25,419 nucleotides of DNA from a virus. Below are positions 4,549 to 15,362 of the stretch, one piece after another. Made by a program: the position numbers and the translations under genes. The notes below the pieces were generated by a model that searched no databases, was not told the DNA's origin, and worked only from the letters and a program-made list of their open reading frames with translations. The DNA lies in the IMG/VR virus record IMGVR_UViG_3300037882_001954, positions 1 through 25,419 of that record; one strand, given 5' to 3'. Within the stretch, counting starts at the first letter, position 1. Each line of letters starts with the position of its first letter.

Positions 4549-5439
4549 ATGGCACCCAAGACTGAAGATAAGCAGATCGAAGCGAAAGACGCTGATCCGA
4601 AGAACCAGATCGCGATCAACCCGACCTCGACGTCGGTCGCCAACTTCAACGACGACGACTTCTTCGGCATCCAGACCGGCATGGAGGATGTCACCTCTGC
4701 TGACGTGACTCTTCCGCGTTACACCATTCTTCAGGGCCTGTCGCCGCAGGTCAACTCGCGCAAGGACGAATACGTCGAAGGCGCGAAGATGGGCATGATC
4801 TTCAACACCGCATCCGGCAAGGTCATGGACAGCCAGCGGCTGGTCTTTGCCTACTACCAACGGCGTCACATCGAGTGGACCCCCCGCGACAAGCCTTGCC
4901 CGATCGAAGGCCTTCCGAAGCCGGTTGGTGGCGGGCTGTTCAAGGACTACGGCACCGACGATTCGATCGTGGGCGAATGCAAGATCTGGGAAGAGAACAA
5001 TTCGCTCTGGACGCCTCGCGGCAACGAACTGGTGATCACCGGAACGTGGTATGTGGTCGATCCCGACACTCTGGCGACCGGATGGATTGGGATGGGCAAG
5101 ACCCAGTTCACCTCGTCCAAGAAACTGCTGGCCGGCATCCGCGACGAGAAGTACATGCACCCGACGAAGGGCATTCAACCCGCGCCGATGTTCTATCGCG
5201 TCTGGGAGATGTCGACCCGGCTTCGCGAGTTCGACGGCAACGAGTGGTTCGTCTGGCAGCACAAGCCTGCAGAGCGGATCCAGGAGCTGCCGCAAGGTCG
5301 CGCCATCCTCGACGCCTGCAAGGAGATCAGCCGGACCATTCAGGAAGGCGATATGACGGTCGACGTCACCATCGGCGAGACGGACGGCCAAGCCGGTCGC
5401 AATTCCGGCGGAAACGTCGACTCTGGCGGTCGCATGTAA
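4549..5439 (+). CDS. Conserved phage protein, probable ssDNA-binding-like
   Basis: A 296-residue protein with AAGGAGACG just upstream of ATG 4549. After an acidic, flexible N terminus come LPRYTILQGLSPQV (about residues 55-68) and MGMIFNTASGKVM, a pattern I know from a widespread phage family of unknown or ssDNA-binding-like function. The middle is rich in aromatic residues and beta strands (FAYYQRRHIEWTPRD, WYVVDPDTL). The C terminus ends in a Gly-rich, low-complexity tail, as ssDNA-binding proteins often do. The ssDNA-binding role is inferred from this tail, the family and its partner at 5675. It could also be another replication or recombination accessory protein. Confidence 0.65.
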   Translation: MAPKTEDKQIEAKDADPKNQIAINPTSTSVANFNDDDFFGIQTGMEDVTSADVTLPRYTILQGLSPQVNSRKDEYVEGAKMGMIFNTASGKVMDSQRLVFAYYQRRHIEWTPRDKPCPIEGLPKPVGGGLFKDYGTDDSIVGECKIWEENNSLWTPRGNELVITGTWYVVDPDTLATGWIGMGKTQFTSSKKLLAGIRDEKYMHPTKGIQPAPMFYRVWEMSTRLREFDGNEWFVWQHKPAERIQELPQGRAILDACKEISRTIQEGDMTVDVTIGETDGQAGRNSGGNVDSGGRM

Positions 5440-5464
5440 CTCCCTGTTCTTTATGGGAAACCAA

Positions 5465-5505
5465 GGTAGCGAGTTTTGAGTACGCTTGTACCTGAACTCG
5501 CTACC
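5465..5505 (+). promoter_or_regulatory. Perfect 11-bp hairpin after the ssDNA-binding-like gene
   Basis: GGTAGCGAGTT (5465-5475) pairs exactly with AACTCGCTACC (5495-5505). The 19-base loop holds an inner GTAC-gctt-GTAC hairpin. It begins 26 bases after the stop. No T run follows, so intrinsic termination is doubtful; protection of the mRNA 3' end or RNA processing are alternatives. Confidence 0.6.
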
Positions 5506-5507
5506 TA

Positions 5508-5539
5508 CCAACCTTGCCCAAACCTTGTGGGCTTTGACC
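5508..5539 (+). promoter_or_regulatory. Copy 2 of the shared CTTGTG-CTTTGAC motif, possible promoter
   Basis: This 31-base block matches 17626-17656 at 28 positions and has the core CTTGTG (5524-5529) followed two bases on by CTTTGAC (5532-5538), as at 392-414. It lies 136 bases before the next gene. No -10 hexamer at sigma70 spacing is seen. It begins the 5' side of the metabolic block, which fits a phage-specific promoter or operator. Confidence 0.55.
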
Positions 5540-5570
5540 TAGCATCCCGAAGAGTCCGCAGGACCTGTTA

Positions 5571-5648
5571 GCTGGCCTACCGTTCCCCAAGCCAGCACCT
5601 AGGGGTTAGACGACGGAGATAGATCCGTGACAGGCCGGAGAGACGGCC
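5571..5648 (+). promoter_or_regulatory. Structured leader with three hairpins
   Basis: GCTGGC (5571-5576) pairs with GCCAGC (5591-5596). Then come two tandem hairpins with look-alike six-base loops: ACGGA-gataga-TCCGT (5613-5628) and GGCCG-gagaga-CGGCC (5633-5648). The ribosome site AAGGAG begins 14 bases later. The twin design with GA-rich loops suggests a protein- or ligand-binding leader; this is inference. Confidence 0.45.
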
Positions 5649-5674
5649 ACCAAATTCAACCAAGGAGACGACCG

Positions 5675-6367
5675 ATGGCAGAAGATGACGCAGCTTTCTT
5701 TGATGGCGATTTGCCGCAGACCTCAGATGACCAGTCCACGACGAGCCGCGTCATCTCGACCTTCAAGGAGCTGATGGGGCTTGAAGAAGAGTACGCTCAG
5801 GTCACTGAGCTCGAATCTGGCCTCAAGTCCAAGATTGGCAAGATCAAGACGGAGACCTTCCCTGACTTGCTGCGCGAGATGGGCACCGAGATCTGGCGTG
5901 ATCCAGAGACCGGGATCACTGTGGAATTGGAGACGGCAGTCAACTCTGCTCTGCCCAAAGACCGTGAGAAGCGTAACGACACACTCAACGCTCTGCGACC
6001 GCTCGGTATCGAAGAGATCTTGGGGGAGGAATTCAACATCACCTTCATCCCGAACGATCCGCGTGCTCCCGCACTTCGTCGCTTCCTCGGCCTGCCTGAT
6101 CCGATCGTGGACGTCATTGAAGACGACGACGCTCCTGCCCCCCGGCTGACCAATGAGCAGGTCGATCTGATCGAGCGTCTCCGGGCGAGCCTGCAGCTTG
6201 GCACCATGCCTGCCGAGGAGAAGCTGGGCGTCCATGCGTCCCAGCTTGGTGCATGGCTTCGCCGGAAGATCGACGAGGGTTTCGGCTCTGCCGTCACTGA
6301 TGCAGGCATCTGGCACGGCAAGTCAGCCAAGGTCAAGAAACCCGACAGCAAGGGGAAGAAGAAATGA
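5675..6367 (+). CDS. Conserved phage protein, helical, with Lys-rich tail
   Basis: A 230-residue protein started at ATG 5675, which has AAGGAGACG directly upstream; GTG 5627 is in frame but lies within a hairpin. The N-terminal third is acidic, then helical (EEEYAQVTELESGLKSKIGK, probable coiled coil). A beta-containing middle follows (TGITVELETAVNSALPKD, EEFNITFIPND), then a helical C-terminal domain and a KVKKPDSKGKKK tail. It resembles phage proteins found next to ssDNA-binding-like genes, as here. A DNA-associated role is likely but unproven. Stop and next start overlap as ATGA. Confidence 0.65.
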   Translation: MAEDDAAFFDGDLPQTSDDQSTTSRVISTFKELMGLEEEYAQVTELESGLKSKIGKIKTETFPDLLREMGTEIWRDPETGITVELETAVNSALPKDREKRNDTLNALRPLGIEEILGEEFNITFIPNDPRAPALRRFLGLPDPIVDVIEDDDAPAPRLTNEQVDLIERLRASLQLGTMPAEEKLGVHASQLGAWLRRKIDEGFGSAVTDAGIWHGKSAKVKKPDSKGKKK

Positions 6368-6828
6368 GCGCGATCAATACCGTTAGCGCCGAAGATATTG
6401 CCGCAGTAGAAGCTCACGGCAACTTCGATAACTATCAAGATGCCGCCACCAAGTCAGCCTTCTACCCCGGACAGGGCACTGCTCTGGGACTGGCCTATTG
6501 CGCGTTGAAGCTCAACGGAGAAGCTGGAGAGCTGGCTGAGCATGTCGGCAAGGCAATGAGGGATGACGGCTTAGTCAAGATCTTGGAGCTTCCTGGCGAC
6601 GGCGAAGCTTACGAGCACAGTTACGCGATGGACCTGATTCCCGGAACTGGTCTTACGGATGACCGTCGCCTGCACCTTATCAAGGAAGTCGGCGACGTGC
6701 TATGGTATCTCTCTGCCATCTGCAACGAGCTGGGAGTCACCCTTCACGAAGCGGCCAACATCAACCTTCGTAAGCTTTACAAGCGTAGCCTTGATGGCAC
6801 GCAACGCGGATCAGGAGACGACAGATGA
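6364..6828 (+). CDS. MazG-like nucleoside triphosphate pyrophosphohydrolase
   Basis: A 154-residue all-helical protein with the MazG metal-binding pattern: NGEAGELAEHVGK gives E53xxE56, and IKEVGDVLWYLSAI gives E108xxD111. MazG enzymes hydrolyse NTPs or dNTPs to the monophosphate and pyrophosphate. About 50 residues separate the two motifs, more than in compact MazG domains, because of an insertion (about residues 66-102). It is flanked by an HD phosphohydrolase and is near ThyX, so dNTP pool control is the likely role. Its ATG overlaps the upstream stop. Confidence 0.85.
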   Translation: MSAINTVSAEDIAAVEAHGNFDNYQDAATKSAFYPGQGTALGLAYCALKLNGEAGELAEHVGKAMRDDGLVKILELPGDGEAYEHSYAMDLIPGTGLTDDRRLHLIKEVGDVLWYLSAICNELGVTLHEAANINLRKLYKRSLDGTQRGSGDDR

Positions 6829-7406
6829 CCATCGACCCAGACACCCAGCGCAACGGCGACTGGATCCAGACCTACACCGGCCGCGCCTTCCACTTCGACG
6901 ACTTCAGTTCGGCCGACATCTGCATCGAGGACATCGCTCACTCGCTGAGCATGGAGTGCCGGTACGGTGGCCATACGGCTTGGCACTACTCCGTGGCTCA
7001 ACACTCGGTGCATGTGTACGACGCGTTGCTTGGCGAGACAGGGGACCGCATGACCCTTCGCCAAGGCTTGCTGCATGACGCGCCAGAGGCCTACGCCAAG
7101 GATATCCCTCGCCCCCTCAAAGCAAGGCTCGGTGAGGGTTACAAGCATTTCGACAGCAGGATCTGGGCTGCGATCTGCGCCAAGTACAAGCTGAAGTTCG
7201 AATTGACCCCGATCATCAAGGAGATCGACTTGAGGATAGCGCTGGATGAGAAGCGCGCATTGCTCTGCAAGGGAGAGAAGGAGTGGACCGGAATCTCTTC
7301 TGCCTTCAAGCCTACCTGGATTTCAATACCAGAGTGGTCGCCTTCCCGCGCTAAGGCGGAGTTCATGAACCGCTTCCGGCAAGAGTTTGGAGTGCATGAA
7401 CTGTGA
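6825..7406 (+). CDS. HD-domain phosphohydrolase (YfbR-like 5'-nucleotidase family)
   Basis: A 193-residue protein with the YfbR-like pattern: DIAHSLSMECRYGGH, then SVAQHSVHVYDALL (H60), LLHDAPEAY (H84-D85), KDIPRPLK and a late Asp in KEIDLRIALDEKRAL (D135). Members dephosphorylate dNMPs or dNTPs using divalent metal. The S-2L enzyme DatZ, a dATP triphosphohydrolase, comes from the same broad family, but no PurZ partner is in this window. It overlaps the genes on both sides (ATGA, GTGA) and so is co-translated with MazG and the FAD enzyme. Confidence 0.85.
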   Translation: MTIDPDTQRNGDWIQTYTGRAFHFDDFSSADICIEDIAHSLSMECRYGGHTAWHYSVAQHSVHVYDALLGETGDRMTLRQGLLHDAPEAYAKDIPRPLKARLGEGYKHFDSRIWAAICAKYKLKFELTPIIKEIDLRIALDEKRALLCKGEKEWTGISSAFKPTWISIPEWSPSRAKAEFMNRFRQEFGVHEL

Positions 7407-8353
7407 GCAAACTCGTCATCTTCGGTGCCGGAATGGCAGGCCTGATTGCGGCTCGCATGCTGGCCGATCGTTCGCCGGTGATCCACGAACAGCAACCGGC
7501 TCTTCCGAACAACCACCACGCTCTGCTTCGCTTCCGGTCCAGTGCCGTCGGCGATGCGACCAACATCCCTTTCGAGCGAGTCAGCGTCGTCAAGCACGTG
7601 CTGTCTGACTCTAACAGCAACCCGATCCGCGACGCCATCATTTACTCCAAGAAGGTGACCGGAAAGATTCACGCACGCCCCATCCTAGATACAAAGCCGG
7701 TTGAGCGTTACGTTGCTCCACAGGACATGATCCAGCGGCTGGCCGTGACTGCCGACATCAAGTACGATTCCGGCTTCCTTGAGTGGTCGCACGAGATGGT
7801 CAGAGACAAGCGGCCGTCTGTCATCTCTACCATCCCCGTCAACAAGATGATGGAGCTCTTCAACTGGCCCAACAAGCCAAACTTCGTCTCGTCTCCGGGA
7901 TGGACGATCAAAGCCGGTGCCGCTCCTGCACTTGACTGCAAAGTCAACGCGACTGTGTATTCGGCGCAAGAGCACACTCTCTGGTATCGGGCTTCGATCA
8001 CAGGCGACAAGCTCACGATCGAAGGCTCCGGATCCCTGCCTGACGGTCCGGACCAAGGCCTCGTCGTGGATCAAGTCTGCGAAGCTTTCGGGCTGGACCG
8101 CGCTGATCTGAGCAGAGAGCTCCTCGCCCATCAGCAGAAGTACCAGAAGATCGCAGACCTCGGCCATGCTGACCGCGAATCAGTTAAGCGGTTCGTGATC
8201 TGGCTGTCTTCTGAGCACCGCATCTACTCGCTCGGCCGCTTCGCGACTTGGCGCCCAAAGCTGCTCCTCGACGACTTGGTCAATGACGTACGCGTCATCG
8301 CCAAGCTCATCGGGGGTGAATCCAATTACAACGCAATCATCGGCAAGGAATGA
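7403..8353 (+). CDS. FAD-dependent oxidoreductase-like protein
   Basis: A 316-residue protein with a clear N-terminal dinucleotide-binding motif, KLVIFGAGMAGLIAARML (GxGxxG at G8, G10, G13). A C-terminal IYSLGRFATWRP probably closes the flavin site, as in many FAD oxidoreductases. The middle (ERYVAPQDMIQRL, VISTIPVNKM) looks like a substrate domain. GTG 7403 overlaps the upstream stop. The substrate is unknown. It lies directly before ThyX, itself a flavoenzyme, so it could support flavin chemistry on nucleotides or act in DNA base modification. Both ideas are inference. Confidence 0.7.
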   Translation: MSKLVIFGAGMAGLIAARMLADRSPVIHEQQPALPNNHHALLRFRSSAVGDATNIPFERVSVVKHVLSDSNSNPIRDAIIYSKKVTGKIHARPILDTKPVERYVAPQDMIQRLAVTADIKYDSGFLEWSHEMVRDKRPSVISTIPVNKMMELFNWPNKPNFVSSPGWTIKAGAAPALDCKVNATVYSAQEHTLWYRASITGDKLTIEGSGSLPDGPDQGLVVDQVCEAFGLDRADLSRELLAHQQKYQKIADLGHADRESVKRFVIWLSSEHRIYSLGRFATWRPKLLLDDLVNDVRVIAKLIGGESNYNAIIGKE

Positions 8354-9162
8354 CCATGGAAGCTGCAACCCCCCGCCATCACGTTGACATCGTCGCGGCA
8401 ACGTACCGAGATCCAGTCGAAGCGGCCGCGCTTCTGATCTTCACCAAGTCAACCCGGCTGGAGATGACGTCCGGAGGCTACGAGGAAGTTCTCCACCGCT
8501 GCCAACTGGACCCGGACTGGATGATGAAGGAGCTGGACTACATGTCCAAGACCATTCGCTCCAGCTGGGAGTTCTTGGACGTTACCTTCACGATCCGGAA
8601 CATCAGCCGTGCCTGCGCCCAGCAGATCACCCGGACCCGGTTCACACCGATCGACGGCGACCTCTTCGCATCCTATGCCATGCAGTCCCAGCGAGTGACC
8701 GACATGTCTGCAATGGGCTGGCACAACCCGAACGAGCCGGGAACTGTCCTGCATGGCGAGTTCGAGGCTTGGATGAAGGAGGCTATGGACAACTACCAGA
8801 ACCTCGTCAAGGACGGTGCCAAGCTCGAAGACGCTCGTGGCGTGCTGCCGGTGAACCTCTACTGCAACCTGATCGCGAAGTACAACCTGCGCATGCTGGT
8901 CGATCTGGTTCAGAAGCGAGAGAGCTACCGGGCTCAGGGCGAGTACAACGTCATCGCTCGCGAGATGCGTGAGGCTCTGGTCGAGGTGTGGCCTTGGGCA
9001 GAGCTCTTCCTGCGGCCGAAGAACGAGCTGGCCAAGGCTGCGGTCGAGGATCTGAAGGCGTCGATCCGCGCTGGCTGCAACGAGGACAATGTCGGCCGAA
9101 CTGCCTTGCACGACATCATGATCAAGCTGGCCAAGGTCGATGATATCTTGCAGGGAGAATGA
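8350..9162 (+). CDS. thyX: Flavin-dependent thymidylate synthase family protein, divergent
   Basis: A 270-residue protein. The C-terminal ThyX signature is clear: LPVNLYCNLIAKYNLRMLV, then R190 and AQGEYNVIAREM. In the ThyX motif region (RHRxxSxNxxSxR) it reads RTR (95-97), an insertion of about nine residues, then ASYAMQSQRV. S108, S113 and R115 are kept, but His is Thr and Asn-Glu are lost. ThyX makes dTMP from dUMP with methylene-tetrahydrofolate, FAD and NADPH. The changed motif could mean altered chemistry, for example another C5 modification of dUMP. ATG 8350 overlaps the upstream stop. Confidence 0.8.
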   Translation: MTMEAATPRHHVDIVAATYRDPVEAAALLIFTKSTRLEMTSGGYEEVLHRCQLDPDWMMKELDYMSKTIRSSWEFLDVTFTIRNISRACAQQITRTRFTPIDGDLFASYAMQSQRVTDMSAMGWHNPNEPGTVLHGEFEAWMKEAMDNYQNLVKDGAKLEDARGVLPVNLYCNLIAKYNLRMLVDLVQKRESYRAQGEYNVIAREMREALVEVWPWAELFLRPKNELAKAAVEDLKASIRAGCNEDNVGRTALHDIMIKLAKVDDILQGE

Positions 9163-9163
9163 G

Positions 9164-9655
9164 ATGGCAGGCATCGAGCAGATTGAGGCCGTCTTCTGCG
9201 ATCTGGACGGGACGCTGTGCGACGTAAAGCATCGACAGCATCTTGCTCAAGCAGGCCAGTGGGATGAGTTCCACAGCCTTCTTGCTCTTGACGAACCGCG
9301 TCCTATGGTTTGGGCTTTCTTGCAGATGCTCTCTGACTTGAAGTCTACCGGCATGCCAGGACCGATCGTCGTCTTCTTGACTGGACGGCCGCGCAATACG
9401 GAAGGCGCAACCGCCAGATGGCTTGCAGAGAAATGCGACCTTCACCTCAGCGACGAGTACGATTGCATCTTGATGCGGCCGGACGGAGACTATCGATCAG
9501 ATACTCTTCTCAAGCAGGAACTTTTGGATGAGTTCCTGTCCACCAGCGACATCGATCCAAGATCGGTGCTCATCCTCGACGACAGAGAAAAAGTCGTCGC
9601 TCACCTCAGGGACATCGGCTACGATGTCTGGCAAGTTCAAGAAGGAGCTTTCTGA
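9164..9655 (+). CDS. HAD-family phosphatase (polynucleotide kinase phosphatase-like)
   Basis: A 163-residue protein. Motif I is VFCDLDGTLCD (DxDGT), motif II is VVFLTGRP, and motif IV is ILDDREKVV. This layout fits the HAD phosphatase domain found in phage polynucleotide kinases (T4 PseT C terminus), here without the kinase. Likely substrates are nucleotides or 3'-phosphate ends. ATG 9164 is preferred over the in-frame ATG 9140 because AGGGAGA (9152-9158) is well placed and the HAD core starts close to it. The stop overlaps the next ATG by one base. Confidence 0.8.
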   Translation: MAGIEQIEAVFCDLDGTLCDVKHRQHLAQAGQWDEFHSLLALDEPRPMVWAFLQMLSDLKSTGMPGPIVVFLTGRPRNTEGATARWLAEKCDLHLSDEYDCILMRPDGDYRSDTLLKQELLDEFLSTSDIDPRSVLILDDREKVVAHLRDIGYDVWQVQEGAF

Positions 9656-10458
9656 TGGTTAACGTTGTCGTCGTTACCGGAGCTAACAGTGGCCTTGGCG
9701 CTGCTATTTGCTCCGGGCTTGATCAAACTGGGTCAAGCCTCTTGCTCAAGGTTGTCGGACCGGAGAGCGAAGTCTCTGGCCGCTGGGAGATGTCTGCCGA
9801 CCTATCTGATGAAGCCGCTTGCGCGGATGTTGCTTCTTGGGTCAAGGCTTGCACCAAAGAATTGCTGGAAGATCTGTGCTTCAAGGATGACGAGAAGATC
9901 TACCCGATCTTGATCAACTGCGCTGGCATCAACTACATCGACTGGTTCGAGAATGCCGACTTCGCCATGTTCGACAAGCTGATCGGGCTCAACGTCAAGG
10001 CTGGGCTCATGCTGGCTCAACAGCTGATCGGGAAACGCCCCCCGGCTGGTGGGCAGGAAGACGACAACTGGTTTCGCGGCCGGGGGGCAATCCTTAACAT
10101 CGTCTCCAACGCGAGCCATATGCCGATGACCAACTCGGCGTTCTATAATGCGAGCAAGGGTGCCTTTCATATCGCGACGTTGGCTCTTGCTCGCGAGTTG
10201 AGGAAGACCCACGGCATCTGCGTCTTCGGTATCAGCCCCAACAAGCTGGCAGGTACTGCAATGTCAGCCTACATTGAAGGGCAAGTTCCTTCTTTGCGCG
10301 GATGGACGCCTGAGCAGGCTGCAACCTACCAACTCGGAGCTCTTCCTTCCGGCGAAGAGACCGACCCGGCAACGTTGGCAGAGTTCATCGCCTTCCTGCT
10401 CTATGAGCCTCAGCGCCACAAGTACCTCACCAACACCATCATCCCTTACGGAGCTTGA
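9655..10458 (+). CDS. Short-chain dehydrogenase/reductase (SDR)
   Basis: A 267-residue Rossmann protein with all classical SDR signatures: VVVTGANSGLG (TGxxxGxG, residues 8-15), INCAGIN (88-93), Ser in NIVSNAS and YNASK (Y164, K168). It should be an NAD(P)H-dependent oxidoreductase. An unusual insert (about 125-143, with PPAGGQEDDNW) precedes the catalytic Ser. SDRs are uncommon in phages. Its place in a nucleotide cluster suggests a nucleotide-sugar or modified-base substrate, but the substrate cannot be read from the sequence. AAGGAG lies just upstream of ATG 9655. Confidence 0.85.
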   Translation: MVNVVVVTGANSGLGAAICSGLDQTGSSLLLKVVGPESEVSGRWEMSADLSDEAACADVASWVKACTKELLEDLCFKDDEKIYPILINCAGINYIDWFENADFAMFDKLIGLNVKAGLMLAQQLIGKRPPAGGQEDDNWFRGRGAILNIVSNASHMPMTNSAFYNASKGAFHIATLALARELRKTHGICVFGISPNKLAGTAMSAYIEGQVPSLRGWTPEQAATYQLGALPSGEETDPATLAEFIAFLLYEPQRHKYLTNTIIPYGA

Positions 10459-10460
10459 AC

Positions 10461-11012
10461 ATGTACTCTCACCTTCAGACAAAAGTCGCCGCACAATCGC
10501 CTCTCCTTGGGCTGCTGCGGATCGATCAGCTCGCCTTCCTCGCTCGGAGCGACGAGGACGAGGCTGCGATCAAGAAGCAACTTCGCCTCTCCGAAGCCAA
10601 CTGGGTCGAAGACCACGTAGTCGCCGAAGGCTACGTTCGAGGAGCTCGCAATCCCGGAGAACCTCGCGGAACCAGGAGCAGCAACACTGCCAAGCTGCTC
10701 TTCAACTACGACCTTGGGATCGAGCTCGAGATCCTGCGTTATACCGAAGGCATGAACTATGCCGACGTCGGGAGCGTCGCTTCCTGCGCACTGTGCCATG
10801 TCGGCTGCCACGTCGAGAAGGGGCAAGAGCTTCCCGGCGTCTTGAAGGATTGGACGTTCGGTTCGCCGATCATCCAGCAGGTCGAGACCCAGAGCCACAC
10901 CAACGAGTTCCTGGTCCAGACCGGTCGTAAGTACCGCTACACGATCTACGACACCAAGGGCCTGCTTGGTGTCTACTTCAAGGTCATCGAACGGCTGGAA
11001 ATTGCAGCATGA
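10461..11012 (+). CDS. Probable VOC-fold (glyoxalase/dioxygenase-like) protein
   Basis: A 183-residue protein. Two beta-alpha-beta repeats can be traced: RIDQLAFLARSDEDEAAIKK to LGIELEILRY, then CHVGCHVEKGQELP to VYFKVIERLE. This is the vicinal oxygen chelate pattern, with possible metal ligands Q23, E90, H113 or H117, and E177. VOC proteins include glyoxalases, ring-cleaving dioxygenases and resistance proteins. ATG 10461 is chosen because GGAG (10450-10453) is seven bases away; TTG 10455 overlaps the upstream stop but is too close to it. Assignment rests on pattern alone. The stop overlaps the next gene as ATGA. Confidence 0.5.
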   Translation: MYSHLQTKVAAQSPLLGLLRIDQLAFLARSDEDEAAIKKQLRLSEANWVEDHVVAEGYVRGARNPGEPRGTRSSNTAKLLFNYDLGIELEILRYTEGMNYADVGSVASCALCHVGCHVEKGQELPGVLKDWTFGSPIIQQVETQSHTNEFLVQTGRKYRYTIYDTKGLLGVYFKVIERLEIAA

Positions 11013-11188
11013 AGCTCTCTTTCGAGAAGCTTGGCTGGATTAAGTGTCGCTGGTCAGGCTTCAATTTCTCGTTCGACGAAACCATGGACGATGCTTGCGG
11101 AGAAGGCTATTCGTACTCCGACTGCTTCATTGTCGCAGGGTTCTGGGTTTATCAATTCCGCATTTGGATAAAGGAAATCGCCAAATGA
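11009..11188 (+). CDS. Small hypothetical protein (59 aa)
   Basis: A short gene with ATG 11009 overlapping the upstream stop and a stop at 11186-11188 overlapping the next ATG. The product is 59 residues, MKLSFEKLGWIKCRWSGFNF at the start, rich in aromatic residues and Cys, with a hydrophobic IVAGFWVYQF near the end. The perfect stop-start linkage on both sides supports it as real. No family recognised. Confidence 0.6.
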   Translation: MKLSFEKLGWIKCRWSGFNFSFDETMDDACGEGYSYSDCFIVAGFWVYQFRIWIKEIAK

Positions 11189-11547
11189 CCAACCACGACC
11201 GCCTTCCCTACGCGACCAACCTTCTTCACAAGATGGCAGACTTGTTCGCAGAACGCAATGCCGTGTACAAAGACAACTTCCGCATGGTCGGCAAGATCAT
11301 GTCGGCGATGTTCCCAGGGGGGTTGGAACTCAAGACGCCTGAGGACCACAACAAGTTCCACCTCTTCATGCTGGCGATCGTGAAGTTGACGCGTTACGCA
11401 ATCAACTACGAAGGCGGGCACAAGGACAGCCTTGAGGACATGATCGTCTATCTGTCTATGGTGGCTGCTCTGGACGCTGAGGCAGAGGCTCAACATCCAG
11501 AGCTTCTTCGGGACGCGGAGCTTCCCGACGCGACCAAGGCTCGCTGA
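11185..11547 (+). CDS. DUF6378-like conserved phage protein
   Basis: A 120-residue helical protein. Two family-like stretches are seen: AERNAVYKDNFRMVGKIM, and AIVKLTRYAINY followed by HKDSLEDMIVYLSM. These match the DUF6378 pattern of small phage proteins (an ERxxxYGD-like start and a D-S-x-x-D near the end), although the actual activity is unknown. The acidic residues and all-helical build recall MazG-like NTP hydrolases. ATG 11185 is used because it overlaps the stop of the 59-aa gene; the longer frame from 11044 is in shadow of that gene. Confidence 0.65.
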   Translation: MTNHDRLPYATNLLHKMADLFAERNAVYKDNFRMVGKIMSAMFPGGLELKTPEDHNKFHLFMLAIVKLTRYAINYEGGHKDSLEDMIVYLSMVAALDAEAEAQHPELLRDAELPDATKAR

Positions 11548-11560
11548 GGGGAACTGACAA

Positions 11561-12028
11561 ATGGCCAAGGAAGCTCAACAAAGCGTCGCTGCTTCGGACC
11601 CGGCCGGTGGCCCCGGCTCCTCTGCAGCCAACGAGGCTTCCTTGGCCATTTTCGCTGAGCCTGACGACCTATCTGACCAGATAGACTTCATCTCCAGTTG
11701 CCTCTTCATGGGCATCTCCCGACGCAGGAAGATTCTCTCTGCGATCTTCGCTAAGTGCGAGCGGCAAGGAGGCTGCATGATATGGCAAGGCTCTCACTCA
11801 GGAACAGGGAGAGGCGGGGGGTACGGCCGCTTCAGTTTCCAAGGTGCAACTTGCAGCGTGCACAGAACGGTCTATGCTGCAGTCTACGGACCGATCCCCC
11901 CGCGCAAGCAAGTGGACCATAGCTGCAATAATCGCTTGTGCTGCAATCCATTCCATCTGGTCGCCATGACCCACAAGCACAATCAGAAACTCAGAGACAA
12001 GAGGCGGAAGAATGCGGATAATATTTGA
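11561..12028 (+). CDS. HNH endonuclease (homing-type)
   Basis: A 155-residue protein with the phage HNH_3 pattern. GGGYGRFSFQGATCSVHRTVY leads into GPIPPRKQVDHSCNNRLCCNP and FHL, with H101, D119-H120, N129 and H132 as likely catalytic and metal residues, and C122 and C127 or C128 for structure. Such genes are often self-spreading free-standing homing endonucleases. The first 65 residues are low-complexity, Ala/Ser rich. It lies between the metabolic and replication genes, and its 3' end overlaps the exonuclease by 17 bases. GAGGGGA upstream is a fair ribosome site. Confidence 0.85.
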   Translation: MAKEAQQSVAASDPAGGPGSSAANEASLAIFAEPDDLSDQIDFISSCLFMGISRRRKILSAIFAKCERQGGCMIWQGSHSGTGRGGGYGRFSFQGATCSVHRTVYAAVYGPIPPRKQVDHSCNNRLCCNPFHLVAMTHKHNQKLRDKRRKNADNI

Positions 12029-12548
12029 CACGGAGACCACCGGTTTCGTGACCAGCATGGATTCTCCATTGAGCATCCAACCCAAGATAATCGAACTGTT
12101 CGCTCTTCGGATTAACGACGAGTTCGACATCTTGGAGGAGCTGGAAGTCTTGATAGACCCGAAAGAGAAACTCAGCGAGGAGATCATCCGGGTGACTGGC
12201 CTCAAAGACGAAGACCTTGCAGGCAAAGGAGAATTCCCCGTCCACTTCCCGAAGATCAAAGACTTCTGGCTTGGTTGCGAAGCTTCTATCGGCCACAACA
12301 TCTCTTTCGATTGCGATATGCTGGAGGTTGAATGCAAACGAATTGGGCAGGTGACAAGGTTCCCGTGGACGCCCAACCGCATTTGCACCGTAGAGGCATC
12401 TGAGCATTACTTCGGCCGCAGGCTCAAGCTCATCGATCTGCACACCTACCTGTTCGGGCAAGGCTTCGAGCAGGCTCACCGGGCTAGGAATGACGTCATG
12501 GCGACGTATCGCTGCGCCAAAGAGATGGCTAGGCGGGGGGACATTTAA
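12012..12548 (+). CDS. DnaQ-like 3'-5' exonuclease (DEDDh)
   Basis: A 178-residue protein of the proofreading epsilon type. Exo I is IIFDTETTG (D and E), Exo II is GHNISFDCDML (D), and Exo III is AHRARNDVMATY (H and D). All five catalytic residues are present. It sits directly before a DNA polymerase III alpha-like gene whose own PHP domain looks inactive, so it probably proofreads for that enzyme. ATG 12012 lies inside the end of the HNH gene. The size matches free-standing phage exonucleases. Confidence 0.9.
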   Translation: MRIIFDTETTGFVTSMDSPLSIQPKIIELFALRINDEFDILEELEVLIDPKEKLSEEIIRVTGLKDEDLAGKGEFPVHFPKIKDFWLGCEASIGHNISFDCDMLEVECKRIGQVTRFPWTPNRICTVEASEHYFGRRLKLIDLHTYLFGQGFEQAHRARNDVMATYRCAKEMARRGDI

Positions 12549-12623: not shown

Positions 12624-15362
12624 TTGAGAATTAGAAGCGGCTATTCATTCCGTACTGCGTACGGTTTCCTAGAAGACGTGCTGGCGAGAACTTTCTCAGA
12701 GCATGCCCCCCTGACCGACCGTGCCTCAGCTTATGGCTTCAACCGCTGGCGCAAGCTGTGCCTCAAGGCAAACAAGAAACCGATCTTCGGCGTAGAACTT
12801 GCAGTCACTGACTCGCCTAACGCAAAGAAGATGAACCTCAATTATGTGACGCTGATAGCGACCACCAGCTTAGGTCCGCTGAATGCTGCATTGGAGTTAG
12901 CTTTCAGTCAGTTTCGCTACGAGCCGATGCTAACCTATCCTCAGCTAAACAGCCTCGACTCAAGCCTCAAGGTTATCCTCGGTCGCAGGATCAATCCAGG
13001 ATTTCTTGATAGGGGCAGAGACTGGTTATACGCTCAGGGTCCGGGCCAAATCCCGGCGATGCAGCGGTGGGCGAAAGAGTTTGGCTGGAGGCCGATAGCC
13101 TGCTCAGACAACATGTATCCTGCGCCAGAGGACAAGCACGCTTATTCCATCGCTATGGGCCGCGACGCAAACACTCAGACTTGGCCGCAGCACATTCTCA
13201 CTGATGCCGAACTGTCGGTCTACGCTACGCCGGAGGCGTTCGCCAACAGGCAAGAGCTGTATGGCATGTGCACGGCAGACATGCTTCGGCCGCAACTAAT
13301 CAAGCCGAAGACTGATAAGACGGTTGAGGAGTGGTGCGACTATGCTGCGCCGTCGCTCAACGTAGACCTAACAGATCCGGTCTACGCGGCTAGGCTAGAG
13401 CGTGAGTTGGCCGTCATCAAGCAGCTTGGGTTCGGAGACTACTTCCTGATCATCGCCGACTTGATCCGTTACGCCAAGACGAAGATGTTCGTTGGCCCAG
13501 CGCGAGGATCTTCCTGCGGATCTCTGGTCTGCTACTTGATGGGCATCACCACTGTGGACCCGATCAAGCACGACCTGCTCTTCGAGAGATTCTTGGATCC
13601 CGGCCGCACCGACTTGCCGGACATCGACATCGACTTCAGTCACCAGAACCGAGATCTAGTCTTCACGTACCTCTCTGACCGTTACGGCCGCGATCACGTT
13701 GCCCGGCTTGGGACCGTCTCCTTCACTCGAGAACGTCAGTTAGCTAAGGAGCTGTCAGCTGCACTGAAGATACCGCAGTTCAAGTTCGAGTCAGTGGTGG
13801 CCAACGTAGAGAAGACGGAAGGCAACACCACGCTGGCCATGGCCATGAAGAACACCCAAGATGGCACTCGCCTGATGAGAGAGCACCCGGAGCTGGCTAT
13901 CATCGATAGGCTCGAAGGCCACCCAAGGCACCACTCCACTCACGCGGCCGGTGTGGTTGTGACCGACTTGCCCATCCACGAGTACGTGGCGGTCGATGCC
14001 AGATCCAACACTGCCGAAGTCGACAAGAAGGATGCTGAGGATCTCGGTCTGCTAAAGATCGACGCTCTTGGTCTGAAGCAGCTGTCCGTGTTTGAGGATT
14101 GCTTGCTGCTGATAGGCAAGCCTTTCGAATGGCTGCAGAACTTGCCGCTGGACGACAAGGGTGCTTTCGGGACCCTCAACAAGAAGCTCTTCTCTGGCGT
14201 GTTCCAATACAACGGCCGCTCAGTGCAGCAGGTCTCTGCAGCCTTCGAGATCGAAGAGTTCGAGGACATGGTCGCGACAACTGCTCTGGGCCGTCCCGGA
14301 CCGCTAGGAGCCGGGGGGACAGACAAGTGGATCGCAGTACGCAAGGGAATCACCCCCCTGCGCATAGAGCACCCAGCTTTTGAACCTATCCTTGGTCGAA
14401 CCAAAGGCATCGTGCTCTATCAAGAGCAGGTCATGCAGGCAGGCAGAGAGATTGGCGGCATGGACTGGGCAAGAGTGACCAAGCTCCGTAAGGCTGTGCA
14501 GTACTTTGGTGGCGCGAAGGGCATGGAAGAGTTCCGGGATGAGTTCATGGCCGGAGCTAAACAGAGAGATATCCCTGCAGACGTGGCTACGCGCTTCTGG
14601 GACGATCTGCTGACCTACGGTTCCTACGCCTTCAACCGCTCTCATGCCGTGGCCTACTCGATGATCTCGTACTGGTGCTGCTATCTCAAGGCTCATCATC
14701 CGCTGGAGTATGCAGCTGCGCTGCTCAACCATGAGGATGAGCCGGCACGTCAGCGTCTCCAGCTCAGAGAGCTAGAGGATGAAGGCGTGAGCTACATTCC
14801 AGTAGACCCTGAGACTTCAGGCCTCAAGTGGCAGGTTACCAAGAAGGGTTTGGTCGGTCCGATAAGTCTGGTGAAAGGTCTCGGCGGTCGCACTGCTCAG
14901 GATTACGTCCTAGCCAGAGACCGTGGAGGAGATCTGCCGAAGCGTGCAGTCAACCTTTTGAAGGATCCGAAGACCCCGCTTGACAACCTGAGGCCTATAG
15001 CTCAGTCGATTGCGCAGAACCATCCGGACTTGACCGAGATCAACATCTTTTCTAAGCCGTTGGCTGTCGACAAACTCGGAGACCGGCCGGAGAGAGACTT
15101 GCTGCTATTCCTGAGGCTAGTCAAAGCTCAACCGCGCAAGGACGACAAGAGCGGCGGAACCAAAATGACAGCTCTCATGGAAGACGACACTGGCCAGATC
15201 AAGGTGTTCTTCAATAACGACAAGTACCAGAAGTTTGGTAAAGACATGCTCGATCGAGGCAGGCCAGGAACTACACTCTGGGCTGTCAAAGGATCTCAGC
15301 CAGACGGTGGCGGCATCATATTCTGCGACATGGTCAGGTCGCTGGGAGAGTTCCGGCAATGA
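12624..15362 (+). CDS. dnaE: DNA polymerase III alpha subunit-like (family C), short form
   Basis: A 912-residue family C replicative polymerase, shorter than the roughly 1160 residues of E. coli DnaE. The N-terminal PHP domain reads RIRSGYSFRTAYG where active PHP domains have an HxH-type site, so it is degenerate. The palm has GPARGSSCGSLVCYLMGI and DLPDIDIDF, with D335 and D337 as catalytic Asp, and KIDALGLK supplies the third, about D480. HHSTHAAGVVVT follows the finger region. A C-terminal OB-like part starts near KMTALMEDDTGQIKVFF. TTG 12624 is the start, with GAGGAGACGA at proper distance. The 3' end overlaps the primase gene. Confidence 0.93.
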   Translation: MRIRSGYSFRTAYGFLEDVLARTFSEHAPLTDRASAYGFNRWRKLCLKANKKPIFGVELAVTDSPNAKKMNLNYVTLIATTSLGPLNAALELAFSQFRYEPMLTYPQLNSLDSSLKVILGRRINPGFLDRGRDWLYAQGPGQIPAMQRWAKEFGWRPIACSDNMYPAPEDKHAYSIAMGRDANTQTWPQHILTDAELSVYATPEAFANRQELYGMCTADMLRPQLIKPKTDKTVEEWCDYAAPSLNVDLTDPVYAARLERELAVIKQLGFGDYFLIIADLIRYAKTKMFVGPARGSSCGSLVCYLMGITTVDPIKHDLLFERFLDPGRTDLPDIDIDFSHQNRDLVFTYLSDRYGRDHVARLGTVSFTRERQLAKELSAALKIPQFKFESVVANVEKTEGNTTLAMAMKNTQDGTRLMREHPELAIIDRLEGHPRHHSTHAAGVVVTDLPIHEYVAVDARSNTAEVDKKDAEDLGLLKIDALGLKQLSVFEDCLLLIGKPFEWLQNLPLDDKGAFGTLNKKLFSGVFQYNGRSVQQVSAAFEIEEFEDMVATTALGRPGPLGAGGTDKWIAVRKGITPLRIEHPAFEPILGRTKGIVLYQEQVMQAGREIGGMDWARVTKLRKAVQYFGGAKGMEEFRDEFMAGAKQRDIPADVATRFWDDLLTYGSYAFNRSHAVAYSMISYWCCYLKAHHPLEYAAALLNHEDEPARQRLQLRELEDEGVSYIPVDPETSGLKWQVTKKGLVGPISLVKGLGGRTAQDYVLARDRGGDLPKRAVNLLKDPKTPLDNLRPIAQSIAQNHPDLTEINIFSKPLAVDKLGDRPERDLLLFLRLVKAQPRKDDKSGGTKMTALMEDDTGQIKVFFNNDKYQKFGKDMLDRGRPGTTLWAVKGSQPDGGGIIFCDMVRSLGEFRQ

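Follow-up and report, generated by a model that had tools for sequence, protein, structure and literature searches.

Gene run upstream of the replicase

We analysed a 25,419-base virus record (IMG/VR IMGVR_UViG_3300037882_001954, positions 1 to 25,419; hereafter the window), which carries a tightly packed run of genes for a flavin adenine dinucleotide (FAD) enzyme, a ThyX relative, a HAD phosphatase, a short-chain dehydrogenase (SDR) and a VOC-fold protein, leading into a DnaE-type replicase. An initial annotation had placed a packed cluster of seven small-molecule enzyme genes at 6364-11012. All seven open reading frames (ORFs) are present on the plus strand, and the packing is confirmed: adjacent genes overlap by at most 4 bases or sit 1-2 bases apart (junctions, in bases: MazG/HD -4, HD/FAD -4, FAD/ThyX -4, ThyX/HAD +1, HAD/SDR -1, SDR/VOC +2). 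The seven genes are contiguous as described, but the run does not stop at 11012; it continues through a 59-residue ORF and a DUF6378-like gene, each joined by a 4-base overlap, and then through HNH, DnaQ and DnaE genes. The features are as follows.

6364-6828, plus strand: MazG-type pyrophosphohydrolase (PF03819 1.4e-7, phrog_229 9e-30); neighbour outside the conserved module
6825-7406, plus strand: HD-type deoxyribonucleoside 5'-monophosphate phosphatase (phrog_318 1.4e-59); neighbour, adjoining FAD in close relatives only
7403-8353, plus strand: core, FAD enzyme with UDP-galactopyranose mutase/amine oxidase-like fold (phrog_4828, unknown function, 1.3e-54)
8350-9162, plus strand: core, ThyX relative with RTR replacing the RHR signature (Thy1 8.6e-27)
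9164-9655, plus strand: core, PNKP-type HAD phosphatase, DxDGT motif intact (HAD_PNKP PF25109 1.8e-22)
9655-10458, plus strand: optional tailoring gene 1, SDR with catalytic N, S, Y, K (adh_short PF00106 1.4e-21)
10461-11012, plus strand: optional tailoring gene 2, VOC-fold protein, methylmalonyl-CoA epimerase-like (predicted structure)
11009-11188, plus strand: small ORF, 59 residues (no Pfam or PHROG family found)
11185-11547, plus strand: core, DUF6378-like protein (PF19905 0.057, under the curated cut-off)
11561-12028, plus strand: HNH endonuclease, probably an inserted homing-type gene (PF13392 1.7e-14)
12012-12548, plus strand: DnaQ-like 3'-5' exonuclease, closing the module (PF00929 1.3e-20)
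12624-15362, plus strand: DnaE-type DNA polymerase III alpha, phage replicase (PF07733 8.6e-69)

A conserved module beside DnaE

The FAD gene was chosen as anchor so that sampling does not favour SDR or VOC, and the best 80 of 444 IMG/VR relatives from an alignment scan formed the FAD-anchored set. FAD, DnaQ and DnaE are all contained in 65 of these 80 stretches, which group into 52 clusters at 90% FAD identity. ThyX occurs in 52/52 clusters, the DUF6378-like gene in 51/52, HAD in 42/52, SDR in 18/52 and VOC in 14/52. Module genes are all co-stranded in every one of the 52, and DnaE lies downstream of FAD in 45/45 loci whose downstream sequence extends for at least 8 kb; all 31 distinct VOC loci with 4.5 kb or more downstream likewise have it. 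The packed run is thus more than chance, since the same order recurs across the 52 clusters, and the comparison of FAD-ThyX-HAD-SDR-VOC order in other phages, proposed earlier as a check, finds that order again with SDR-VOC optional.

MazG was not found at the equivalent place in most relatives, and among VOC-anchored loci only the close relatives L006, L007 and L009 have HD beside FAD. Because neither is conserved together with the remaining genes, a single seven-gene pathway is ruled out. The conserved unit is FAD-ThyX-HAD-SDR-VOC plus the DUF6378-like gene, leading into DnaQ-DnaE, in which SDR-VOC is optional. Of the earlier suggestion of one pathway for an unusual nucleotide or a host metabolite, we favour the nucleotide, but the unit has changed: MazG and HD fall out of it, and the DUF6378-like gene, DnaQ and DnaE come in.

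HAD and DUF6378 form a single fused protein in nine loci (L001, L002, L004, L030-L035), carried by phages Carpasina (Xanthomonas), Wifcevirus ECML-117, Pbunavirus DL68, Kyle (Pantoea), MTx (Serratia), Pluto (Luteibacter), Gekk3-15 (Aeromonas), WTB (Burkholderia) and TropicalSun (Erwinia); in the window they are encoded separately, by one gene on either side of SDR-VOC. The replication clusters of Pbunavirus and Wifcevirus share the order FAD-ThyX-HAD+DUF6378-DnaQ-DnaE. Unlike the window, Pbunavirus DL68 is without SDR-VOC, and Wifcevirus has SDR-VOC but combines HAD and DUF6378 in one protein. Relatives of the FAD enzyme occur in 359 phage records, mostly from Pseudomonas, and the module sits at a fixed place beside DnaE in phages of Pseudomonas, Escherichia, Xanthomonas and Microbacterium. 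Single-sequence scans of viral contigs with FAD and ThyX gave no matches, blanks that say little given the 444 returned by the FAD alignment. None of the titles or abstract openings listed in searches of open-licence literature describes the module.

Some of the module's genes also occur in actinophages. The Microbacterium phage Sparcetus (L003) has HAD, SDR, VOC, DUF6378-like and DnaE genes, and Gumball (L036) and Gibbin (L037) have SDR, DnaE and, by profile match, ThyX; the HAD of Gumball is backed by hhalign (90%). The FAD-like genes of Sparcetus (hhalign 46%) and Gumball (0.5%) and the DUF6378-like gene of Gumball (0.2%) were left uncounted because this support is insufficient; in Gumball both resemblances are by eye only. 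In Mycobacterium phage Gumball (L036:4614-7696) and Gordonia phage Gibbin (L037:3644-7696), an oxidoreductase, a HAD nucleotidase, a methyltransferase, a small ORF and an SDR precede DnaE, and ThyX follows it. Their methyltransferase belongs to the family seen in SDR-only module contigs. Sparcetus, which has both SDR and VOC, carries a glycosyltransferase right after its split DnaE (L003:13029-14105), possibly an extra decoration step.

Core enzymes

The FAD protein has no Pfam family above cut-off (best UDP-galactopyranose mutase profile E-value, 0.049), and the same is true of VOC; the names given to both in the initial annotation are for that reason inferences, with which the predicted structures agree. 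The FAD model adopts a UDP-galactopyranose-mutase-like fold (4dsg; Z 21.7, root mean square deviation (rmsd) 3.7, 307 aligned residues, 17% identity). No coenzyme A (CoA) or UDP-sugar pathway was seen near the module.

ThyX is assigned by profile (94.6 bits against a cut-off of 24.8). Its signature in the window is RTR, where the solved ThyX proteins compared show RHR; among 98 distinct ThyX relatives the middle residue of R-x-R is T in 79, N in 6, H in 6, S in 4 and Q in 2, with none found in 1. HAD keeps its catalytic motif, and its profile best matches Pnkp1 and T4-type polynucleotide kinase, while a remote counterpart in contig L126 matches the pyrimidine 5'-nucleotidase NT5C slightly under that family's cut-off. 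The DUF6378-like protein of L012 matches PF19905 at 6.4e-5, also under the curated cut-off, and alignment of DUF6378 against solved structures matched nothing convincing.

The SDR-VOC pair

N113, S151, Y164 and K168 of the SDR are invariant in 14 sequences. The VOC protein of the window has no PHROG family; its model (pLDDT 87.3; Foldseek 9.1e-8 to 3gm5) shows the paired beta-alpha-beta-beta-beta fold of the VOC superfamily and is methylmalonyl-CoA-epimerase-like (3gm5; Z 12.4, rmsd 3.3, 135 aligned, 18% identity). The four metal ligands of methylmalonyl-CoA epimerase are H, Q/E, H and E. In VOC, E88, E90, H113, H117 and H146 are invariant in 20 sequences, and in the sequence alignment Q23 stands at the place expected of the first His. 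The remark that SDR and VOC are unusual in phages can be qualified with counts: VOC relatives occur in 54 and SDR relatives in 122 of 50,697 phage records. No VOC relative was confirmed in bacterial genome contigs in a search with one pattern.

SDR lies within 700 nt upstream of VOC in 52/52 distinct cases for which 600 nt or more of the upstream region was available. The pair stands before DUF6378 in 9 of 14 clusters and after it in 5. SDR occurs without VOC in 4/52 clusters, two of which have a Methyltransf_11 gene; the nesting of VOC within SDR presence suggests that VOC acts downstream of SDR in the pathway. A quick-method FAD tree of 70 rows, with 23 of its 67 inner branches open, shows 16 changes of state for SDR and 14 for VOC. 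Across 7 independent pairs differing in SDR (starred branches), VOC differs in the same direction in a mean of 5.6 and in the opposite direction in 0 (median p 0.03 by sign test). Contigs L105 and L111 are sisters with the same genes and with aligned DNA 71-79% identical, apart from a clean insertion of SDR-VOC between DUF6378 and DnaQ in one of them.

SDR-VOC is therefore an optional pair that is gained and lost together. Its occurrence is patchy and not obligatory (SDR is absent from 34/52 FAD clusters), but it lacks the random scatter that the initial annotation had named as counter-evidence, given the 52/52 adjacency and the joint changes on the tree. This tight coupling also rules out SDR and VOC as chance passengers.

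In two contigs (L155:1802-3970 and L139:4347-7138) in which FAD and ThyX were not detected, the genes upstream of the pair encode a YfbR-like HD nucleotidase (PF12917 7.5e-25 in L155) and a nucleoside 2-deoxyribosyltransferase (PF05014 3.6e-15, 5.7e-13), besides an ORF that matches no Pfam family but in which an RHR motif was seen by eye. These genes may be an alternative front end for the same decoration pair, a variation at the nucleotide level.

Other genes in the tailoring slots

The slots held 140 listed ORFs, of which 30, mostly the longest, were scanned for families. Carbamoyltransferases with both domains occupy slots in L048, L084, L091 and L115; methyltransferases are FkbM in L068 and Methyltransf_11 in L058, L088 and others; and a PAPS-reductase domain is present in L089. 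Nmad5 was found in 2 of 22 records searched (L051 and L113, both SDR-VOC clusters) and not in the records behind L006, L007 and L009, the nearest relatives of the window, which may be fragments. Many scanned ORFs matched no family; others encode helicase, HNH, MazG or pyrimidine-dimer glycosylase proteins.

A combination census covered 102 loci in 74 clusters and was VOC-enriched by design. It returned SDR+VOC in 30 clusters, SDR+VOC+Nmad5 in 2, SDR+methyltransferase in 2, SDR alone in 2, methyltransferase in 3, carbamoyltransferase in 3, both transferases in 1, FkbM in 1 and PAPS in 1. SDR-VOC is the commonest tailoring set found in this VOC-enriched set. No carbamoyltransferase or methyltransferase coincides with VOC in the 74 clusters, which is suggestive only because those seeds were drawn from VOC-less loci.

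In the window the HNH gene, probably an insertion, lies after the DUF6378-like gene and shares 17 bases with DnaQ, which follows it; HNH genes also occupy slots in L057 and L076. Two genes upstream of the run (window 4549-6367) resemble cyanophage Pam3 genes: one matches gp34 (PF23977 2.3e-33), the other gp33 weakly (PF23984 7.2e-6, under its cut-off).

Thymidylate synthase families and modified bases

A search for ThyA-type PF00303 detected it in none of 13 whole phage records and none of 23 IMG/VR contigs of module relatives, with the proviso that contigs may be fragments, as the window itself is; the same search was positive in 9 of 14 controls. Thy1 is the only thymidylate-synthase family found, once in each of the 13 whole records. 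Among the 23 contigs are all five with a carbamoyltransferase and both with Nmad5. Both the M6-type and the carbamoyl pathways begin with a hydroxymethyl pyrimidine, normally from a ThyA-type enzyme. As no ThyA-type enzyme was found in any carbamoyltransferase or Nmad5 contig checked, ThyX is, among the known one-carbon enzymes found in them, the sole candidate for making the hydroxyl acceptor. Trapping of the ThyX reaction intermediate reportedly gives 5-hydroxymethyl-dUMP, which would bring the required chemistry within easy reach.

M6/SP10/ViI-type thymidine hypermodification was reportedly described by Lee et al. in 2021. Its founder is a pyrimidine hydroxymethylase of ThyA type. Excerpts of PMC9476957 describe Nmad5 as part of SN1/M6-type thymidine hypermodification cassettes, and M6-like phages as modifying half of their thymines after replication, from 5-hydroxymethyluridine. 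The module resembles M6/SP10/ViI-type systems, so far as those excerpts portray them, in its position near a phage polymerase gene, its thymidylate-synthase-type founder and its swappable tailoring genes, and Nmad5 is common to the cassette and to two SDR-VOC clusters here. It differs in that its founder is ThyX and in that no aGPT-Pplase, radical SAM or PLP family match occurs among its genes. We do not assign it to the M6 type because its relatives were searched for a ThyA-type founder and none was detected. By analogy, the module would work like known phage hypermodification cassettes with a different founder.

In the excerpted text of PMC8670742 (MetaGPA), a related two-domain carbamoyltransferase converts 5-hydroxymethylcytosine (5hmC) to 5-carbamoyloxymethylcytosine and adjoins thymidylate synthase genes in modified contigs. 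Those systems are alike in placing a carbamoyltransferase beside a thymidylate-synthase-family gene in phage DNA, but there, according to the same excerpts, it co-occurs with ThyA-type PF00303, whereas the five contigs here are without PF00303 and have ThyX; the window carries SDR-VOC instead of the carbamoyltransferase.

Proposed pathway and alternatives

We consider it probable that the module is a ThyX-founded pathway for a modified pyrimidine deoxynucleotide that is put into phage DNA and shields it against restriction. Computed in its support are the conserved order on one strand, the link to the replicase, the HAD-DUF6378 fusion, the paired gain and loss of SDR-VOC, the presence of other tailoring-type genes in the slots, and relatives in which a ThyA-type synthase was not found. 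Incorporation of the product into DNA, the identity of the base and each reaction are what we infer from sequence. In this scheme the ThyX relative would add a one-carbon unit to C5 of dUMP (or dCMP), and the UDP-galactopyranose-mutase-like flavoenzyme, the PNKP-type HAD phosphatase and the DUF6378-like protein would process or channel the nucleotide. In the subset of phages that includes the window, SDR would then oxidise or reduce an oxygenated group on the modified nucleotide, which VOC would isomerise or rearrange; in others a carbamoyltransferase or methyltransferase would be swapped in, or Nmad5 added. The adjacent DnaQ-DnaE replicase would incorporate the product, and restriction enzymes would fail to recognise the DNA.

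A more specific version, which we put forward tentatively, is that a ThyX-family enzyme has turned into a flavin-dependent pyrimidine hydroxymethylase that founds its own class of hypermodified DNA. Its exchangeable cassettes would be, no less tentatively, SDR-VOC, SDR-methyltransferase and carbamoyltransferase, together with additions such as Nmad5.

The proposal of a ThyX-founded modification must be tempered by several observations. RHR is kept in 6 of the 98 distinct ThyX proteins within the same gene context, so RTR does not imply a changed activity, and ThyX may do no more than make thymidylate (dTMP). No tailoring gene searched for is present in 29 of the 74 census clusters. Of 35 VOC loci with 5.5 kb or more upstream, 5 do not show both a FAD and a ThyX homologue, and neither homologue could be detected in L139, L149 and L155, which have SDR-VOC-DUF6378-DnaQ-DnaE. 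The MetaGPA carbamoyltransferase is, in the excerpted account, active on 5hmC and not on 5hmdUTP (PMC8670742). Wifcevirus remains EcoP1_I-sensitive, and in the excerpted Pbunavirus digests, which are weak evidence, AA20 resisted 10/16 and AC20 7/16 enzymes while the unrelated U17 resisted 5/16, and HindIII cut all four phage DNAs including that of Pbunavirus (PMC11945000).

The last of these results would also suit the same module acting on polymerised DNA, after replication and at particular sites, with HAD-DUF6378 as a DNA-end or base-processing enzyme like the PNKP relatives. This is possible, though we think it unlikely: the best HAD profile fits (Pnkp1 and T4-type polynucleotide kinase), the post-replicative modification described for M6-like phages in the excerpts of PMC9476957 and the HindIII cutting of Pbunavirus DNA in those of PMC11945000 point towards it, but Pfam and PHROG profile searches found no DNA-binding domain or DNA kinase in the module, and the L126 counterpart of HAD matches, slightly under cut-off, a nucleotidase. 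Rather unlikely, too, is ordinary nucleotide supply, in which ThyX makes dTMP, MazG, HD, HAD and DUF6378 trim the deoxynucleoside triphosphate pool, FAD and SDR recycle flavin or folate cofactors, and the DNA is unmodified. Thy1 as the only thymidylate synthase family in 13/13 records, the RHR kept in some ThyX members and the nearby MazG, HD and nucleotidase genes are consistent with such a role, which nonetheless leaves unexplained a mutase-like flavoenzyme in lock-step with ThyX, the carbamoyltransferase or methyltransferase in place of SDR-VOC, Nmad5 in a slot, and the restriction resistance of Wifcevirus.

Modification of a host metabolite or cofactor (e.g. a nucleotide-sugar or folate), reprogramming the infected cell, is improbable. 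The fold of the flavoenzyme is nearest to UDP-galactopyranose mutase, and SDR and VOC folds are frequent in sugar and acyl-CoA metabolism, but the fixed place beside DnaE in phages of hosts as diverse as Pseudomonas, Escherichia, Xanthomonas and Microbacterium points to DNA rather than to host-specific metabolism.

Implications

Wifceviruses, which carry the module, are reported to be resistant to nearly all restriction systems tested, without a known mechanism, and Pbunaviruses are heavily used in therapy. A Pbunavirus gene is said, in excerpts of PMC12390725, to encode an END nuclease inhibitor, and a preprint cited there, whose title names END nucleases and multiple hypermodified genomes of phages and which is known by title only, may already report the Pbunavirus base. 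If true, the ThyX-founded pathway would account for the restriction resistance of Wifceviruses, would mean that Pbunaviruses share a pathway with hundreds of uncultured phages, and would add a new set of enzymes that modify nucleotides. An arms race with modification-dependent nucleases would be expected to produce such swapping of tailoring genes around a constant core, an idea that the natural sister pairs with and without SDR-VOC would make testable.

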